Origin: Desulfobulbaceae bacterium
Lineage (GTDB): Bacteria; Bacteroidota; Ignavibacteria; Kapaibacteriales; UBA2268
Direction: 5' to 3'
Length of the DNA stretch: 53,080 bases
Assembly: GCA_018335795.1 (NCBI GenBank)
Contig: JAGXRP010000002.1
Location: 1 to 53,080 of the forward strand
Positions within the stretch are counted from its first letter, which is position 1; each line of letters begins with the position of its first letter. The position numbers and the translations under genes are program-made. Below, piece by piece: positions 25,956 through 43,368 of this stretch. The notes under the pieces were generated by a model, which had not been told where the DNA came from, did no database searches, and was given only the letters and a program-made list of their open reading frames with translations.

Positions 25956-27275
25956 ATGAAAAAAGTGATTATTATCGGTGCAGGTGTTGCCGGAATTTCC
26001 GCAGCAATCGAAATTTGCCAATCGGGGCATGAAGTAGTACTGCTTGAGCAAAAGTCTCAAATCGGTGGCAGAATCTACTCTATCGAGGATAATATATCGG
26101 GCGATTTGATTGATAATGGGCAACATTTACTTACGGGAGCTTACCACAGATTTTTAGAAATTCTAAAGATTTTGGGGACTGACGGTCAAATTAAAAAGCA
26201 AAAATCTTTATCTATAGATTTTTATTCAAAAAATGGTACTACAAGTTTAGACACTTCAAAATTGCCGGGTAGTTTGGGACTACTTTATGGATTATTATCG
26301 CTCCAAAACATCAAATTAGTTTCAAAACTTGCTGCTATTAATCTTGCTATCAAACTGAAAATCGGTTTGGAAGGCAATACTGACGAAGATTGCCATACTT
26401 TTCTCCGTAGGCATAATCAGGGCGAAGATTTAATCACTTTATTTTGGGAACCACTTATAATGGCAACGATTAATGCCGAAATGAATGTTGCTCCGGCAAA
26501 ATTGTTGGTAAATGTTCTCAAGAAAGCATTTTTTGCCGATAGAAAATCAGCAATTCTGATGTTCCCAACAACTGATTTGAATCAATTATTAGAACCTCTT
26601 GATGAATTTCTTGCGAAGAATAATTCCAAAATCAAACTTTCAACCAAAGTTGCAAAATTGAATTTTATTGAAAATACCTGCAAAGGAGTGATATTATCGA
26701 ACGGTGAAATAATCGAAGCCGATGCAGTGATTATAGCCGTTCCACCATATTCACATCAAAAAATGCTACCATCTGAATCACCTTTAGCTGAATTCGCAAT
26801 GAAAATGACTTACTCTCCGATAATCTCGGTTTATTTCTGGTTCGAGCAAGATTTGTTTGACTTTGATTTTGCAGGAATTATTGGTTATCATTCTCAATGG
26901 ATTTTTAACCGCAGACGTTTGATAAAGATAGAATCTCCTAAGTTTGGCGGTCATATTACGGTAACCGTCAGCGCCGCCGAAAGTATTATTAAAATGTCTT
27001 TAGATGATATAGCCGAGCTCGTTTTCGACGAAATTAGAATGGTTTTCAAAATAGACGATGAGATAAAACCAATTCGACATAAAGTTATAATCGAAAAATT
27101 CGCTACTCCCTTATTTACTTGCGAGAACGAGAAACAAAGACCGAGCGAATCTACAGATATAGAAGGATTATTCGTGTCGGGTGATTGGTGCGATACGGGG
27201 CTCCCCGCAACGATTGAAGGAGCTGCAATCAGTGGTTTGAATGTGGCTAAGCTAACAAAAAAGTTCTTGGTTTAG
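25956..27275 (+). CDS. hpnE: HpnE-like FAD-dependent hydroxysqualene dehydroxylase
   Basis: This is an FAD-binding amine-oxidase-fold protein. The start is placed at ATG 25956 because MKKVIIIGAGVAGISAAIEI is the standard dinucleotide-binding N-terminus (GxGxxG). An upstream in-frame start would add 19 unrelated residues. Other motifs are EQKSQIGGRIYS, DNGQHLLTGAYHRFL (the 'NGQH' region typical of HpnE-type squalene-associated desaturases), and the C-terminal GLFVSGDWCDTGLPATIEGAAISG that closes the FAD site. Known family members convert hydroxysqualene to squalene in hopanoid synthesis. HpnC and HpnD are not in this window, so the substrate is inferred. Length is 439 residues. Confidence 0.8.
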   Translation: MKKVIIIGAGVAGISAAIEICQSGHEVVLLEQKSQIGGRIYSIEDNISGDLIDNGQHLLTGAYHRFLEILKILGTDGQIKKQKSLSIDFYSKNGTTSLDTSKLPGSLGLLYGLLSLQNIKLVSKLAAINLAIKLKIGLEGNTDEDCHTFLRRHNQGEDLITLFWEPLIMATINAEMNVAPAKLLVNVLKKAFFADRKSAILMFPTTDLNQLLEPLDEFLAKNNSKIKLSTKVAKLNFIENTCKGVILSNGEIIEADAVIIAVPPYSHQKMLPSESPLAEFAMKMTYSPIISVYFWFEQDLFDFDFAGIIGYHSQWIFNRRRLIKIESPKFGGHITVTVSAAESIIKMSLDDIAELVFDEIRMVFKIDDEIKPIRHKVIIEKFATPLFTCENEKQRPSESTDIEGLFVSGDWCDTGLPATIEGAAISGLNVAKLTKKFLV

Positions 27276-29164
27276 CGAATTTCAAATTTGAAATCGGTGT
27301 AGCGTTTGGCAAGTTTCGATGCGACTTCTTCGGCATCTTGCTGAGTTTTATATCCCCAAATCTTAACGCGATAAACAGGGGAATTATTCTGCAAAACCCG
27401 GTCGTAGTAAGAACGATAACCGATATTTTCCCATTCTTCAACTTGGAGTAGCGCATCAAATTCCGAATCCCTATAACCAGAAATAATTTCAAAAGGTAAA
27501 TAATCGGGGTCGAGCCAACGCAATTCTACCCGGCGATTGTAGTATTGTGCCCAATACGAATTTTGTAAATAATAAATAGGATTGCTTGAACCTTCGGAAC
27601 GAATCCGAATCATAGCAGGGTCGGCTCCTAATTCTATTAATCTGCGTCTTACCTCTTGAGCACGCTTCAGAGCTAATTTTTGGGATTCTTCATCATTGCC
27701 TTCGATGCTGCTATTTCCAATTAACTCTATTTTGCGTCCGGGACTTTCGGATAAAACCCGTGCGAGAGTACTGATAGTTTCGTCAAAATCGCGACTCAAT
27801 ACGGTATCACGTTGCTCGAATGATGCAACTGCTTGGTATCTGAAAAATTGCTTTTCGCGAGCAATCGGAATTTTGACTGTATCGGCAATTCTCGGCAATA
27901 TGGTGTTGTGGCTGATTATAATATTTCTATAATTTTCAGTTGGATTTTTTTGCTCATTATAAGCCAAAGTAAGTTCGTAGCCTTTACGCACAGAAAAAGA
28001 AATCTCATTGAAAACTTTTGGCAAATCCGATATTTGACTGTCATCCAAACCGTAGTATTTGCCACCTGTGTTATCGCAAAGATATTTGAGCGAGTAAGTA
28101 TCTACGGCATTTCCTATTCCAATTACGTAAATCGGAATTCCACGCGATACGGCAAACTCAACCAAGTCATTTCTGTCGTAAACAAGCGAAGCATTGTCCG
28201 TGCTATATGCAATCAAAACCAAAATTTTTTTATTGTCAGATTGCATCGAAGCAAATGATTGTAATGTACTTAGCCCGGATTTGTAAACAGCGCTGAATCC
28301 ACTTGCTTTTTCGATACCTAGATTACGAATAAAATTATTAAATTTGTCGGCATTTTGCAGAGCGACCGAAGTGTTGATTTTTTGATTGAACGAGCGAAAC
28401 ATAATTCTGTCTTTATTTCTCAGACCTTTGGCAAAAGATTTGAAATTGTCGAAAATCGGATAGTAATCGCCTGCAATAGCCGAGTTATCAAGCAATACCG
28501 CCAAATCAATATGTTTTGAATCATAATGATATTTCTTGAAAGATAATACATCTAAATTTGTGATTTTTTCGGATGGAATATCTACCATAGTAGCTACCAA
28601 ATCACTTCCAAACTTTGAATTATTATTAAGTCCTTCGATGAAATTCCCAAATTCATCGAAAACTAAGAGATTAAGATTGATTTTGTCATTGTCAATCATA
28701 TGAGAAAGTATGCGAAAATTTTTTGGCTTTACATTGGCAGAATAATCAATTATACCCGAGAAGTATTCGGATTGCAAAAATGAAGGTGTAGCATCAGTAG
28801 CTTGGACAGTACCTGTAGTGATTATATCTTCGGGCATTTTAACAAAGACATGCCATTTGAATAATACTGTGTCCACACCTCGTATAGCAAGAAAATTGTA
28901 GATTGTGGTGGCGTCGGGTTTGACGGTTAAACTGTCAATCGGGTCGTAATTTCTGCGTAAATTTTCAATCCTTATTTTTTCAGCACCCTCAAATTGCCAA
29001 GATAATTTGGCAGATTCACCCTTTTGAATCTCGGAAACAGCAGGGAAAACGATTGGTTTGATTGCAGTTTCCTTGGGTGAAGAACACGAAATCGCTGTCA
29101 TTGCAGATATTATTACAGCAAGTGACAGAAATAAAATATGTTTTTTAAAGTATAACTTATTCAT
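27272..29164 (-). CDS. Lipoprotein with VWA-like, OmpA-like and SPOR-like domains
   Basis: This is a 630-residue lipoprotein with its lipobox ending at Cys27 (TAISC). Residues about 45-105 look Ig-like. About 195-375 resemble a von Willebrand A domain: DLAVLLDNSAIAGDYY, then KKILVLIAYSTDNAS and VSRGIPIYVIGIGN. The metal site DNSAI lacks the second Ser of DxSxS. About 455-550 form an OmpA-type peptidoglycan-binding domain (KIELIGNSSIEGNDEE, RAQEVRRRLIELGA, YNRRVEL). About 575-630 look like a SPOR repeat (PVYRVKIWGYKTQQDAEEVA). The combination points to an outer-membrane lipoprotein tethered to septal or bulk peptidoglycan. Its 3' end overlaps hpnE by 4 bases, convergently. Confidence 0.8.
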   Translation of the reverse strand: MNKLYFKKHILFLSLAVIISAMTAISCSSPKETAIKPIVFPAVSEIQKGESAKLSWQFEGAEKIRIENLRRNYDPIDSLTVKPDATTIYNFLAIRGVDTVLFKWHVFVKMPEDIITTGTVQATDATPSFLQSEYFSGIIDYSANVKPKNFRILSHMIDNDKINLNLLVFDEFGNFIEGLNNNSKFGSDLVATMVDIPSEKITNLDVLSFKKYHYDSKHIDLAVLLDNSAIAGDYYPIFDNFKSFAKGLRNKDRIMFRSFNQKINTSVALQNADKFNNFIRNLGIEKASGFSAVYKSGLSTLQSFASMQSDNKKILVLIAYSTDNASLVYDRNDLVEFAVSRGIPIYVIGIGNAVDTYSLKYLCDNTGGKYYGLDDSQISDLPKVFNEISFSVRKGYELTLAYNEQKNPTENYRNIIISHNTILPRIADTVKIPIAREKQFFRYQAVASFEQRDTVLSRDFDETISTLARVLSESPGRKIELIGNSSIEGNDEESQKLALKRAQEVRRRLIELGADPAMIRIRSEGSSNPIYYLQNSYWAQYYNRRVELRWLDPDYLPFEIISGYRDSEFDALLQVEEWENIGYRSYYDRVLQNNSPVYRVKIWGYKTQQDAEEVASKLAKRYTDFKFEIR

Positions 29165-29183
29165 ACAAGCAATTTATATCAAT

Positions 29184-30512
29184 TTACTTTTTTGAAAAAA
29201 TAAATTTTCCATTTTCTAAGCAATCTATGTAAATTTTTTCTCCCGAACTAAATTCCCCTGAAAGCAATTTGACCGATAATGGGTCAGTAATGTGCTTTTG
29301 AATAGCACGTTTAAGCAGTCTGGCTCCAAACTGTGGGTCAAACCCGATATTTGAAAGCCATTCTAAAGCAGATTCAGAAACTTCATAAGTAATATTTTTT
29401 AAAGCTAACATTTTACCAAGTCTTTTCAATTGTAGTTCGGCAATTTTTTTAATTTCTTGACTTGTCAAAGGTTTGAAAAGAACAATTTCGTCAACCCGAT
29501 TCAAGAATTCAGGTCTTAAACGCTTATGTAATTGTTCTACAATAAGCACTTTGATGTCGGACATAATCTCGTCTCGATTGATTTCATCAATCAAATTCAG
29601 TTTATCTTGAATAAGTTCAGTACCCAAATTTGAAGTCATTATGATAATTGTATTTTTGAAATCAACGAGTCTGCCTTTGCCGTCGGTCAATCTGCCATCA
29701 TCAAGAACTTGTAATAGAAGATTGAAAACATCGGCATGAGCTTTTTCAAATTCGTCCAAAAGTAGTACTGAGTATGGTTTCCGTCGCACGGCTTCGGTGA
29801 GTTGCCCACCCTCTTCATATCCTACATATCCGGGAGGTGCGCCCAGTAATCGCGAAACAGAAAATTTTTCCATATACTCGCTCATGTCAATTCGGATAAC
29901 CGCTTGCTCATCATCAAAAAGGAACTCTGCTAATGCTTTCGCCAATTCGGTCTTACCGACTCCGGTTGAGCCAATAAAAATGAATGAACCTATGGGGCGA
30001 TTTATATCTTGCAATCCCGCTCTTGAACGCCTAATGGCATTGGAAACAGCGATGACAGCTTCTTCCTGACCAATGACTCTTTCGTGTATTCGCTCTTCCA
30101 TTTTAAGTAATTTTATGAGTTCAGATTCCAACATACGATTGACGGGAATTCCTGTGGATTTTGATACAACTTCAGCAATATCTTCAGCATCTACCTCTTC
30201 TTTCAGCATTTTCCCTTCAGACTGAATTTTTTGGAGCAATTGATTTGCATCTTGGAGTTTTTTCTCGATTTCGGGCAATTTACCGTATCTTATTTCGGCA
30301 ACTTTTGCGAGTTCGCCGTCGCGTTCAAAATTTTCCGAAATGATTTTAAGATTTTCTAATTCTTTTTTACAAGTCCTAATGGAACTAATAGCACTCTTTT
30401 CACTCTGCCATTTTGCGGACAACATTCTTTGTTTAGATTTTAATGACTTGAGTTCAGACTCAATTTCATTCAATCTTTTGCGAGTAGCTTCTTTAGTCGA
30501 AATTTCATTCAT
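29184..30512 (-). CDS. ClpB-like disaggregase fragment: partial M-domain plus NBD2 only
   Basis: The 442-residue product matches only the second half of ClpB. Residues 1-105 are the tail of the coiled-coil M-domain (KRLNEIESELKSLKSKQRM, ELAKVAEIRYGKLPEIEKKL). They are followed by TGIPVNRMLESE, GQEEAVIAVSNAIRRSRAGL, Walker A GSTGVGKT (181-188), pore loop GYVGYEEGG (228-236), Walker B LLLDE (250-254) and the C-terminal small domain. The N-domain and the whole first AAA+ module of a normal ClpB (about 860 residues) are absent, and a divergent SRAP gene occupies the upstream DNA. The start is set at ATG 30512. An in-frame ATG at 30635 would add 41 non-homologous residues and overlap that gene. 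Sequence conservation is high, arguing for function. Confidence 0.85.
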   Translation of the reverse strand: MNEISTKEATRKRLNEIESELKSLKSKQRMLSAKWQSEKSAISSIRTCKKELENLKIISENFERDGELAKVAEIRYGKLPEIEKKLQDANQLLQKIQSEGKMLKEEVDAEDIAEVVSKSTGIPVNRMLESELIKLLKMEERIHERVIGQEEAVIAVSNAIRRSRAGLQDINRPIGSFIFIGSTGVGKTELAKALAEFLFDDEQAVIRIDMSEYMEKFSVSRLLGAPPGYVGYEEGGQLTEAVRRKPYSVLLLDEFEKAHADVFNLLLQVLDDGRLTDGKGRLVDFKNTIIIMTSNLGTELIQDKLNLIDEINRDEIMSDIKVLIVEQLHKRLRPEFLNRVDEIVLFKPLTSQEIKKIAELQLKRLGKMLALKNITYEVSESALEWLSNIGFDPQFGARLLKRAIQKHITDPLSVKLLSGEFSSGEKIYIDCLENGKFIFSKK

Positions 30513-30515
30513 GTT

Positions 30516-30523
30516 CAAAACTA
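30516..30523 (-). promoter_or_regulatory. -7 box TAGTTTTG abutting the ClpB-half start
   Basis: The minus strand reads TAGTTTTG at 30523-30516, three bases before the ATG at 30512. No TTG at the right distance was found, so confidence is low. Confidence 0.3.
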
Positions 30524-30607
30524 CATAAATTTTACATATTGATTGATACAACGGAGTAAAGATTTTTTTATTAATTTTGGAAATTGGAAAATGATAAGGT
30601 TTTGTAA

Positions 30608-31291
30608 ATGTGTGAAAGATTTGCACTAAATGCAACGACCAAAGATGTCGGAAAATTGGTGCCCAAAATAAAGATTCAGAATGAAATCAGGAATAGCTTC
30701 AATATTGCTCCCTCAGCATCTATCGCATGTTTGAAGGATGAGGGCGATTCGGTCGCTCTATCGTATTTCAGATGGGGACTGATTCCGTCATGGGCAAAGG
30801 ATAGTTCTATCGGGAATAAAATGATAAATGCACGAGCGGAAACACTTACAGAAAAAGTTTCTTTCAAACGACTCCTGAATCGCTATCGATGTATAATTCT
30901 CGCATCAGGATTTTATGAATGGTTTAAAGCAGTAAATGACCAAATACCGCATTACATAACTATGAAAAACGATGAACTGATGTGTTTTGCAGGTTTGTAC
31001 GATAATTGGAAAAATGAAAACAACGAAATCATAACTACAGCGACTATAATTACTACCGAACCAAATACACTGATGGCACAAATCCATAATCGAATGCCCG
31101 TGATTTTAGAGCCTGATGATATTAGCGACTGGTTAGATACAAAATTGGATTTTAATATTTTGAGTGATAGACTAAAACCAATTCCATCGTATAAATTGAG
31201 GGCTTATCCTGTGAGTCATTTGGTTAACAATCCGCAACATAATAATGTAGATTGCCTCGCTCCGCAAGGTGAAGACTTAGTTGTCAGTTAA
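30608..31291 (+). CDS. SRAP (YedK/HMCES) family DNA-crosslink protein
   Basis: This 227-residue SOS-response-associated peptidase protects abasic sites by linking its Cys2 to the DNA. The N-terminus is MCERF, where most family members read MCGRF/Y; Cys2 itself is retained. Other family motifs are FRWGLIPSWAKD, MINARAETL, CIILASGFYEWF (catalytic Glu) and the IHNRMPVIL histidine motif. Its 3' end overlaps the TPR gene by 8 bases, convergently. Confidence 0.93.
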   Translation: MCERFALNATTKDVGKLVPKIKIQNEIRNSFNIAPSASIACLKDEGDSVALSYFRWGLIPSWAKDSSIGNKMINARAETLTEKVSFKRLLNRYRCIILASGFYEWFKAVNDQIPHYITMKNDELMCFAGLYDNWKNENNEIITTATIITTEPNTLMAQIHNRMPVILEPDDISDWLDTKLDFNILSDRLKPIPSYKLRAYPVSHLVNNPQHNNVDCLAPQGEDLVVS

Positions 31292-32006
31292 TTTCAGAAA
31301 TTTTCGACTCGAAATATTTTGCTTTTTCGGGTTGAATTTTGATTAATTCTCTATAAATTGCTTTCGCTTTGCTGAAATTTCCTTGACGAATTAGAATATT
31401 TGCATATGTTTCGGTAACCGGCAAACCACGTATATCGTCCAATTTGAAAAATTCATCACTTTCAATTGTGATTGTTCTGACTAATTTTTTTCGATATTTA
31501 GGTGCCAATTTGCGATTGTTTGCATCAGAATAAAATCTCGACATTGTAATTTGACGATTTTTTGCTACTTCTGATGCTTTATTTATTTTCTGACGATAAG
31601 TATCGTTTGCCGATTTGTCATAAAACGCAGATAATTTGATGTCTGAGCGTAAAGAAATTTCAACCGTATCAACCTGCTCAAATTCGACTTCAATTCCTTC
31701 TTCCTTTGTCGCTTCAATAGGTTCATCTTGTTCAATAAAGTATTCTGTAGATTCAGATTGGGCAAATTTAGTTCGAATTTTTGCCGGCTTATTTTGAATA
31801 ATATTAACGGAGAATTTTTCGATAACTTGCTGTGAACGCTCCGAATTACCTTCAAGAGAATATGCATGAGCCAATATAGCGACAGCTGCTGCATAATCAG
31901 GATAAATTTCCAATCCTCGCTCACAAAGCGAAATAGCTTCGGCGATTCGACCTTCACTAATAAGCTCTTCGGCTTCTATTGCAAAAAGTTGATTAATATC
32001 ATCCAT
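31284..32006 (-). CDS. TPR-containing protein
   Basis: This 240-residue protein starts at ATG 32006; an in-frame TTG at 32021 would add five residues. Residues 5-65 form one or two tetratricopeptide-like helix pairs (LFAIEAEELISEGRIAEAIS, GLEIYPDYAAAVAILAHAYS). A C-terminal pair follows at about 205-238 (ANILIRQGNFSKAKAIYREL). The middle, about residues 75-150, is acidic and low-complexity. It has no signal peptide, so it is probably cytoplasmic. It is 20 bp downstream of the polyprenyl synthase gene. Function is unknown. Confidence 0.7.
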   Translation of the reverse strand: MDDINQLFAIEAEELISEGRIAEAISLCERGLEIYPDYAAAVAILAHAYSLEGNSERSQQVIEKFSVNIIQNKPAKIRTKFAQSESTEYFIEQDEPIEATKEEGIEVEFEQVDTVEISLRSDIKLSAFYDKSANDTYRQKINKASEVAKNRQITMSRFYSDANNRKLAPKYRKKLVRTITIESDEFFKLDDIRGLPVTETYANILIRQGNFSKAKAIYRELIKIQPEKAKYFESKISEIN

Positions 32007-41319: not shown

Positions 41320-43368
41320 ATGAGTGTTTTAGTAGGAAAACAAACAAAATTGCTCGTACAGGGCATCACAGGTTCGGAAGGAACTTTTCATACTTCACAG
41401 ATGATTGAGTACGGAACTCCTGTAGTTGCAGGTGTAACTCCCGGCAAAGGTGGAATGTTGTATGGCGGAAAAGGGGACATAATGTTCAAATCAGCTGTGC
41501 CACTTTTCAATTCCGTAAGTGAAGCTGTAAAGAAAACAGGTGCAAATACATCTGTAATTTTTGTTCCACCACCATATGCGGCTGATGCGATTTTGGAAGC
41601 AATAAACGCAAAAATCAAAGTTATAATTTGTATTACAGAAGGAATTCCAGTTCGTGATATGATTCCGGTAAAGCATGCCTTGGATAATTCCAATTCAGTA
41701 CTTATCGGTCCCAATTGTCCGGGTGTAATTACTCCTGATGAAGCAAAAATCGGTATTATGCCGGGTTTTATTCATAAAAAAGGCAATATTGGCGTTGTTT
41801 CTCGCTCAGGCACTTTGACTTATGAAGCTGTAAAGCAATTAACGGATTTAGGATTAGGTCAATCAACTTGTATTGGAATTGGTGGCGACCCAATTATCGG
41901 AACTCAACATATAGATGCTATAAAATATTTTAACGAGGACCCCAACACACATGCAATCGTTATGATTGGTGAAATAGGTGGTTCGGCAGAAGAAGAAGCA
42001 GCCGCTTATATTGCGAAATATGTTCAAAAACCGGTAATAGCATTCATTGCAGGTAGAACTGCACCTCCCGGAAGACGTATGGGTCATGCCGGTGCAATTA
42101 TATCCGGTGGAAAAGGCACGGCTGAAGAAAAAATCAAAGCACTTAAAGAAGCCGGTATTTTTGTAGTCGAAACACCCGCGAAGATTGGTCAAACAGTTCT
42201 TGATTCTTTGAAGTTAGGGATACCTGCTCCCAAAAGAAAACAGGGGAGACCTCCGAGAGCCGAAGGTGCAGTTGTAAAAACTGTTGCTCCCGTAGTAACC
42301 GATGCAACACCCAAAAGAAGACCGGGAAGACCTCCGAGAGCCGAAGGTGCAGTTGCAAAAACTGTTGCTCCCGTAGTAACCGATGCAACACCCAAAAGAA
42401 AACCTGGAAGACCTCCGAGAGCCGAAGGTGCAGTTGCAAAAACTGTTGCTCCAGTAGTAACTGATGCAATACCCAAAAGAAAACCGGGAAGACCTCCGAG
42501 AGCCGAAGGTGCAGTTGCAAAAACTGTTGCTCCAGTAGTAACCGATGCAACACCCAAAAGAAAACCGGGAAGACCTCCAAGAGCCGAAGGTGCAGTTGCA
42601 AAAACTGTTGCTCCAGTAGTAACCGATGCAACACCCAAAAGAAAACCGGGAAGACCTCCAAGAGCCGAAGGTGTAGTTGCAAAAACTGTTGCTCCCGTAG
42701 TAACCGATGCAACACCCAAAAGAAGACCAGGGAGACCTCCGAGAGCCGAAGGTGCAGTTGCAAAAACTGTTGCTCCCGTAGTAACCGATGCAACACCCAA
42801 AAGAAAACCGGGGAGACCTCCGAGAGCCGAAGGTGCAGTTACAAAAACTGTTGCTCCCGTAGTAACCGATGCAATACCCAAAAGAAAACCGGGAAGACCT
42901 CCGAGAGCCGAAGGTGCAGTTACAAAAACTGTTGCTCCCGTAGTAACCGATGCAACACCCAAAAGAAGACCAGGAAGACCTCCAAGAGCCGAAGGTGCAG
43001 TTGCAAAAACTGTTGCTCCCGTAGTAACCGATGCAACACCCAAAAGAAGACCGGGGAGACCTCCGAGAGCCGAAGGTGCAGTAAATAGTACTGTGGGTAA
43101 CGAAATTACTGAAAATCAAGAAGCAAAAGCAAAAAAAGAAGCAGCTCCCAAAAAGCCCAAAAAAGTCATTGACACTTCGAGTATGACTCCTTTGGAAAGA
43201 GCAATTGCTCGCAGAAGAGGCAGACGCAAAAAAGGTATCACGGTAACGACTGCTAAACCTCCGGTTGACTTAAGACCGGTTGAGGAACCCGTTGTTAAGT
43301 TTCCGGAAAATCCCAAAAATGTGATTGTGTTCGACTCAAGCGATGAAAATCCGAACAACAATGAATAG
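41320..43368 (+). CDS. sucD: Succinyl-CoA synthetase alpha subunit with 11 AT-hook-like C-terminal repeats
   Basis: Residues 1-304 are a complete SucD, the CoA- and phosphate-handling subunit of the TCA-cycle ligase. They contain the CoA-binding [35 protein letters not shown] and the phospho-His loop [14 protein letters not shown] (His256). A normal SucD stops near residue 290. Here the frame runs on through ten full 27-residue repeats and one partial repeat (residues 305-588), core [14 protein letters not shown], each with a GRP flanked by basic residues as in AT-hooks. A further basic tail follows ([15 protein letters not shown]), then an acidic end. No stop or start signal separates the parts. 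A terminator follows 27 bp after the stop. sucC is not in the window. Confidence 0.95.
42232..43083 (+). repeat. 81-bp coding minisatellite, 10 full copies plus a half copy
   Basis: Units start at 42232 and every 81 bp to 43042. Copies are nearly identical; changes are mainly K/R, T/I and A/T/V codons. The near-identity suggests recent expansion or gene conversion. The reverse strand stays open in several frames across the array only because of the periodicity. Confidence 0.98.

Follow-up and report, generated by a model that had tools for sequence, protein, structure and literature searches.

Two Genes for One ClpB: A Probable Natural Split of the Disaggregase at the Distal Loop of Its Middle Domain

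Can a gene that encodes only the C-terminal half of the disaggregase ClpB act by itself, or is it one part of a chaperone divided between two genes? This question is raised by a contig from a bacterium of the order Kapaibacteriales (JAGXRP010000002.1 in the assembly GCA_018335795.1; positions 1 to 53,080, forward strand). The whole stretch of 53,080 nucleotides is designated here as the window. ClpB is usually seen as one polypeptide, in which the middle domain relays the signal of DnaK to the first nucleotide-binding domain (NBD1). The original prediction, made from the letters of the window, was a single-ring disaggregase that consists of the second nucleotide-binding domain (NBD2) and a remnant of the middle domain. 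The analysis below indicates that the protein is very probably one of the two halves of a naturally divided ClpB, which would co-assemble into a DnaK-coupled two-tier hexamer.

The C-Terminal Half of ClpB in the Window

The gene lies on the minus strand at positions 29184..30512 (442 aa with an ATG start; stop codon included) and encodes helices 2–4 of the middle domain, the end of the NBD1 small domain, and NBD2. The protein, designated as the C half, matches positions 429–852 of the 853 positions of the ClpB model TIGR03346 with 622.8 bits. Its AlphaFold model has a mean predicted local distance difference test (pLDDT) score of 85.6, and the first PDB match of the model is E. coli ClpB, 54% identical in the structural alignment; the identity to the top-listed solved ClpB structures is 48–58%. 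Based on this model and the alignment with E. coli ClpB, helices 2–4 were assigned to residues 3–99 (30216..30506, minus strand), where helices are predicted at residues 3–64 and 68–99. The helix names follow PMC3887210, which describes two strands of the NBD1 small domain with the whole middle domain between them in sequence. The end of the NBD1 small domain corresponds to residues 103–123, LKEEVDAEDIAEVVSKSTGIP (30144..30206, minus strand), the exact residues being our own assignment. No strand precedes the helix of this segment in the AlphaFold model, and the pLDDT scores are 69, 71, and 68 in the blocks covering residues 101–130.

NBD2 carries the Walker A motif GSTGVGKT at residues 181–188 (29949..29972), located by invariant positions in the alignment of C halves, as well as the pore loop GYVG at residues 228–231 (29820..29831) and the Walker B motif, ending with DE, at residues 249–254 (29751..29768), both recognized from the sequence and the same alignment. 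All three are on the minus strand. These residues, which we take to have the roles usual for such motifs, are invariant or nearly invariant among the 17 aligned C halves. Three bases ahead of the ATG, TAGTTTTG is present (30516..30523, minus strand), and the sister species at the locus L089 has TATTTTTG at the matching position beside the start of its C half.

The original prediction was right in describing a separately started, non-decaying C-terminal half of ClpB with intact Walker A, Walker B, and pore loop, and the sequence that it called promoter-like is present beside the start (TAGTTTTG at 30523–30516). Orthologues likewise keep the truncation. The description of the protein as only the end of the middle domain plus NBD2 was correct for NBD2 and too narrow for the rest, since three of the four middle-domain helices and the end of the NBD1 small domain are present.

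The N-Terminal Half in the Same Genome

The genome containing the window (3.53 Mb in 82 contigs; 99.93% complete with 3.09% contamination) encodes no full-length ClpB over the curated cut-off of TIGR03346, the ClpB equivalog model (1232.1 bits), as indicated by a profile search. The contig C33 includes a separate open reading frame (ORF) of 439 aa with a GTG start, which matches the model positions 1–430. This N half comprises the N-domain, NBD1, and helix 1 of the middle domain; it matches the domain families Clp_N, AAA, and AAA_lid_9, and its catalytic motifs are conserved in 16 N halves. Neither half reaches the cut-off (622.8 bits for the C half and 666.6 bits for the N half), and for both of them the ClpB family scores highest, above ClpV, ClpA, ClpK, and ClpG. 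The sole other large relative in the genome is an intact protein of 850 residues, which is taken to be ClpC.

The two halves tile the ClpB model (1–430 from C33 and 428–852 from the window), so that the N-domain, NBD1, the middle domain, and NBD2 are all encoded. All four middle-domain helices are present: helix 1 was recognized by alignment of the N-half tail, and helices 2–4 by alignment of the C half together with the AlphaFold model. Instead of being truncated, ClpB is thus divided in this genome. The absence of the N-domain and NBD1 in the original prediction holds for the locus (about 430 residues) and does not hold for the organism, and the proposed NBD2-only single-ring machine is not supported, since the N half is encoded in the same genome.

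Position of the Break

Among the split sequences compared, the break is found within a few residues of one place. The N halves end after the sequence (Q/R)LEIER(E/Q)AL(L/K)REL, or a near variant of it, followed by 0 to about 15 variable residues. In the C halves, an ATG and about 5–15 variable residues precede a (T)(R/K)KRLEEIEKEL-like sequence. The fused genes are continuous across the break, for example with KRE-KDEAS-AKRL. Residue 6 of the C half aligns with residue 433 of E. coli ClpB, and residue 436 of the N half falls on position 435 in the model for E. coli-type ClpB; therefore, the cut is placed near E. coli residue 433. Judging from these alignments, the cut opens the tip of a hairpin, which is the distal loop between helices 1 and 2 of the middle domain. 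Helix 1 is left on the N half, while helices 2–4 and everything after the middle domain are on the C half. Because strand 2 of the small domain of NBD1 sits on the C half, NBD1 can be completed only in trans.

In PMC4023160, E432 is described as lying at an end of the coiled coil of the middle domain, and E432A is reported to repress ClpB. E432 of E. coli maps to E433 of the N half, and this residue is invariant in the 16 N halves. The distal loop between helices 1 and 2 matters for the collaboration with Hsp70, according to PMC3887210. Altered coupling to DnaK, which had been predicted for the window, may thus still apply, for a reason different from the one first given: the cut opens this very loop.

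Evidence for a Probable Single Machine from Two Proteins

Constraint on the segments expected at the interface was compared between 43 split and 18 fused genes of the class, as the mean pairwise identity of a segment relative to the neighbouring NBD and without a significance test. The relative identity of the helix-1 stub to NBD1 is 0.93 in both the split and the fused genes. The values are 1.13 (split) and 1.19 (fused) for the NBD1 small-domain end relative to NBD2, and 0.74 and 0.77, respectively, for helices 2–4. For comparison, 21 named fused genes from other groups give ratios of 0.84 for helix 1, 1.08 for the small-domain end, and 0.60 for helices 2–4. By this measure, no relaxation of constraint is evident on the interface segments of the split genes. 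The helix-1 stub and the small-domain end would serve a purpose only if the two halves come together, and the latter has no evident use on the C half without the N half.

The genome of the window also encodes dnaK. One genome of the same order (G036), about 100% complete, has neither half and just the ClpC-level match, and the absence of both fits a co-dependent pair. Because the interface segments are conserved, dnaK is present, and G036 lacks both halves together, it is likely that the halves pair as a ClpB hexamer; they probably have to find each other for a working machine.

The proposed mechanism starts from the break at the distal loop of the middle domain, with clpB-N elsewhere in the genome and clpB-C in the window. 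The products would associate without a covalent bond: helix 1 of the N half would pack into a coiled coil with the C-half helices, and the NBD1 small domain would be completed by a strand of the C half. Six pairs of N and C halves would build the usual two-tier ClpB hexamer, which would thread aggregated proteins and be switched on by DnaK. We infer the physical pairing, the hexamer, the disaggregase activity, and the DnaK coupling from sequence comparison.

Distribution of the Split

Sixty genomes of the order Kapaibacteriales, including the genome of the window, were searched, with matches listed down to an E-value of about 1e−148. No full-length clpB over the cut-off is found in any of the 60, in contradiction to the alternative that close relatives carry the full-length gene. 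Among the matches listed, both halves are found in 51 genomes, only the N half in two, only the C half in two, and neither half in five, although these five may include genomes with weaker, unlisted pieces. The genomes G001 and G002, from the same genus as the window, have both halves. Among the 51 genomes, three (G037, G046, and G054) have a C half that is fragmented or located at a contig end, and the N half of G016 from this order is partial. At the locus L110 (G037:C1:982000-989000), the C half appears as two overlapping ORFs matching positions 429–702 and 694–848. Additional full-length matches of about 743–760 bits at L013 (G046), L012 (G051), and L011 (G058) were rejected as ClpV, the ATPase of type VI secretion; this check covered these three genomes, and a further match of this kind is in G213.

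Samples from the class and the phylum were screened by scoring the three best candidates per genome. In the class, 145 of 294 genomes are over the full-length cut-off, and all of them are among the 170 genomes outside Kapaibacteriales and the families f13, f15, f19, and f22. All 62 rows from Kapaibacteriales and all 62 rows from these four families are below the cut-off. The best match is at the one-half level in 54 of the 62 genomes of these families, and both halves were found in all 13 genomes checked. In the phylum, the cut-off is exceeded by 152 of 247 genomes. From three families (f35, f37, and f50), 61 genomes are below the cut-off, all with best matches at the one-half level, and 11 of 11 genomes checked have both halves.

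The antenna protein FMO (PF02327) was matched in all 10 tested genomes of f35, f37, and f50 (over 202 of 355 positions in G369), in none of five genomes of the class of the window, and in none of 14 controls. FMO is a marker of green sulfur bacteria, Chloracidobacterium being the other known bearer; by this protein, f35, f37, and f50 are green sulfur bacteria. The profile matches suggest that green sulfur bacteria have ClpB in two pieces. The UniProt entries "ClpB 1" and "ClpB 2" of Chlorobium tepidum may be the two halves.

From named contigs, L113 is the only stand-alone C half among the 58 scorable of the best 80 loci. The other 57 scored ClpB ORFs are 523–1131 aa long, and the listed matches are mostly fused clpB genes of other groups. 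G197 belongs to a mostly fused family, and a frameshift interrupts its clpB in the same middle-domain helix (L097; G197:C1:1161000-1171000). Its overlapping ORFs match positions 1–442 and 407–848, and this case was treated as a separate in-place break. Its genus-mate G262 has no ClpB-level match.

Origin of the Split

In the ClpB tree of 61 rows, from which the junction columns were left out, the split state requires five changes, of which the starred branches force only two. Four changes are required in the ClpB tree of 36 rows, and three in the rpoB tree, where the starred branches force one. A single clade of all split genes is rejected by the approximately unbiased (AU) test with 61 rows (p = 0.00082) and only marginally with 36 rows (p = 0.045). 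A clade of the split genes of the class alone is borderline on ClpB (p = 0.058) and not rejected on rpoB (p = 0.22). Neither the clade of f15 and f22 (p = 0.21) nor that of f19, f13, and Kapaibacteriales (p = 0.58) is rejected on ClpB. The split genomes form three groups on rpoB: green sulfur bacteria; f15 and f22; and f19, f13, and Kapaibacteriales. As a separate observation, rpoB itself was matched in two open frames at G122:C1:124404-128128 and in three at G081:C52:6948-10408, owing to sequence error or real breaks.

Because the trees oppose a single split clade and, in the loci examined, an OmpA-like gene adjoins the C half only in Kapaibacteriales and their named relative L113, it is plausible and favoured, although not proven, that a single tolerant loop was the site of repeated fission. 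The fused genes of the families f20, f23, f24, and f29 have about 7–14 extra residues at the break (loci L193, L202, L203, L205, L206, and L112), which suggests that the distal loop tolerates change. These residues are possibly scars of re-fusion, or they may reflect the tolerance of the loop itself. In the class, the KDEAS-like loop known from distant ClpBs persists in most of the fused relatives, and one Prevotella locus also has an insertion; thus, tolerance explains the insertions as well as re-fusion does. A broader proposal, in which clpB was split independently at least two and perhaps three times (in the three groups seen on rpoB), always at the distal loop, with the two-component assembly from separately regulated halves serving as an activity switch and the open loop altering the activation by DnaK, is tentative and rather doubtful as a whole.

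Gene Neighbourhood

Directly downstream of the C half, on the same strand, lies a gene at 27272..29164 (minus strand) whose product we take to be OmpA-like from its sequence. A divergent SRAP-like gene is located upstream at 30608–31291, where the N-terminal part of ClpB would be, as originally described. With the locus L075 left out, the OmpA-like neighbour is present in 17 of 20 loci (16 of 19 from Kapaibacteriales, plus the named contig L113). It is found in none of the 23 C-half loci from other split families, many of which have flanks of only 1.5 kb. Two genomes of the same genus share the arrangement polyprenyl synthase-TPR-SRAP-ClpB C half-OmpA-like-desaturase. Because these genomes share the order, the junction between the C half and the SRAP gene is not a chimera of assembly, and this explanation was discarded.

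The N and C genes either lie on separate contigs or are kilobases from each other; the closest pairs seen (5.8–7.6 kb) are from f22. Upstream of 68 N-half and 56 C-half stretches, duplicate loci included, the best matches to the CIRCE (controlling inverted repeat of chaperone expression) element have 6–10 mismatches, compared with 4–7 for the best of 30 shuffles. In the same stretches, TTG-N(17-23)-TAnnTTTG is found in 3 of 68 for N and 1 of 56 for C, against 0.8 and 0.95 expected, showing no clear enrichment.

Elsewhere in the window, positions 41320–43368 (plus strand) encode a protein that we take to be succinyl-CoA ligase alpha-like, with a long C-terminal tandem repeat of roughly ten units. 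The GC content is 0.49 at 42001–43000, inside this gene, against about 0.35–0.39 around it.

Alternative Explanations

Skd3, the mitochondrial "ClpB" of metazoans, has a single AAA domain of the NBD2 type and no NBD1, and it is not known to have a partner half. The C half is similar to Skd3 in carrying an NBD2-type AAA domain without NBD1 on the same chain, but differs in that a conserved N half exists, on the contig C33. A C half acting alone as a Skd3-like NBD2-only disaggregase or unfoldase would agree with its intact NBD2 and pore loop, with the chains of caseinolytic peptidase B homologue, taken as Skd3, among its PDB relatives, and with Skd3 being a potent disaggregase as reported in PMC7343390. 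The N half accompanies the C half in nearly all genomes checked, however, and this explanation, set aside once the N half was found on C33, is quite unlikely. It is also unlikely that an NBD1 remodeller and an NBD2 remodeller work as two independent machines and no longer associate. The separate genes, their different neighbourhoods, and the lack of a common regulatory motif in the regions scanned are in line with such independence, but helix 1 and the NBD1 small-domain end are conserved about as in fused ClpB, and the halves co-occur and are both absent from G036.

Restoration of a full-length ClpB by protein or RNA joining, through a split intein or a trans-spliced intron, could account for halves that tile ClpB almost without overlap. 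The N halves, however, stop 0 to about 15 residues past the conserved sequence with variable tails, the C halves have their own ATG and about 5–15 variable residues, and no space is left for an intein. Rfam, which would cover introns, gave no match at the C-half locus (window positions 28900–31600), and joining was rejected as very improbable. An artefact of assembly or annotation, or a decaying pseudogene, is scarcely conceivable: the in-place frameshift of G197 illustrates that a broken clpB can arise in single sequences, but the identical break recurs in many independent genomes, single-contig ones included, sister species share the gene order, the motifs are conserved, and constraint is not relaxed.

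Several observations weigh against a divided ClpB as well. No promoter or CIRCE element is common to the upstream regions of both halves, and the halves are non-adjacent in all listed split genomes except the frameshifted G197. Four genomes of Kapaibacteriales, all at most 94% complete, list one half only, and the C half of G037, a single-contig genome, is itself broken into two ORFs. Eight of the 62 genomes of f13, f15, f19, and f22 (six from f15 and two from f19) have no best match at the half level. Finally, the Asp of the distal loop named in PMC3887210 seems, by eye, to be lost at the break, and the DnaK coupling may therefore be altered.

Comparison with Known Systems and Meaning

The split ClpB is similar to canonical ClpB/Hsp104 (TIGR03346; E. 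coli and T. thermophilus) in having all domains, motifs, and middle-domain helices across the two proteins, and differs in being two polypeptides from two genes, broken between helices 1 and 2 of the middle domain. The nearest precedent found is the plastid ClpC of Nannochloropsis, an Hsp100 protein whose two AAA domains are on separate genes; PMC3999925 describes clpC1 (D1), clpC2 (D2), and a possible ORF for the N-domain, with the M-domain not clearly identifiable in the pieces. Unlike that case, the protein here is ClpB, and the middle domain itself is divided with both parts conserved. NBD1 and NBD2 of T. thermophilus ClpB were also expressed as separate proteins, as described in PMC3940203. 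The NBD2 construct (520–854) is artificial and begins after the middle domain, about 90 residues past the natural cut; residue 10 of the C half aligns with residue 428 of T. thermophilus ClpB.

A literature search that included Chlorobi and gene fission, mostly at the level of titles and abstracts, found no description of a naturally split ClpB. A 2007 paper calls C. phaeobacteroides the only species of Chlorobi containing ClpB (PMC1887533), and this statement would fit split halves that were overlooked in the others. Annotation that relies on a full-length cut-off misses a split ClpB.

If the two halves do form one machine, an unbroken ClpB chain is not required at the distal loop, and NBD1 would be completed by a second protein across entire lineages. 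The split ClpB would then provide, without engineering, a means to combine the two rings at will and to titrate or mutate each on its own.
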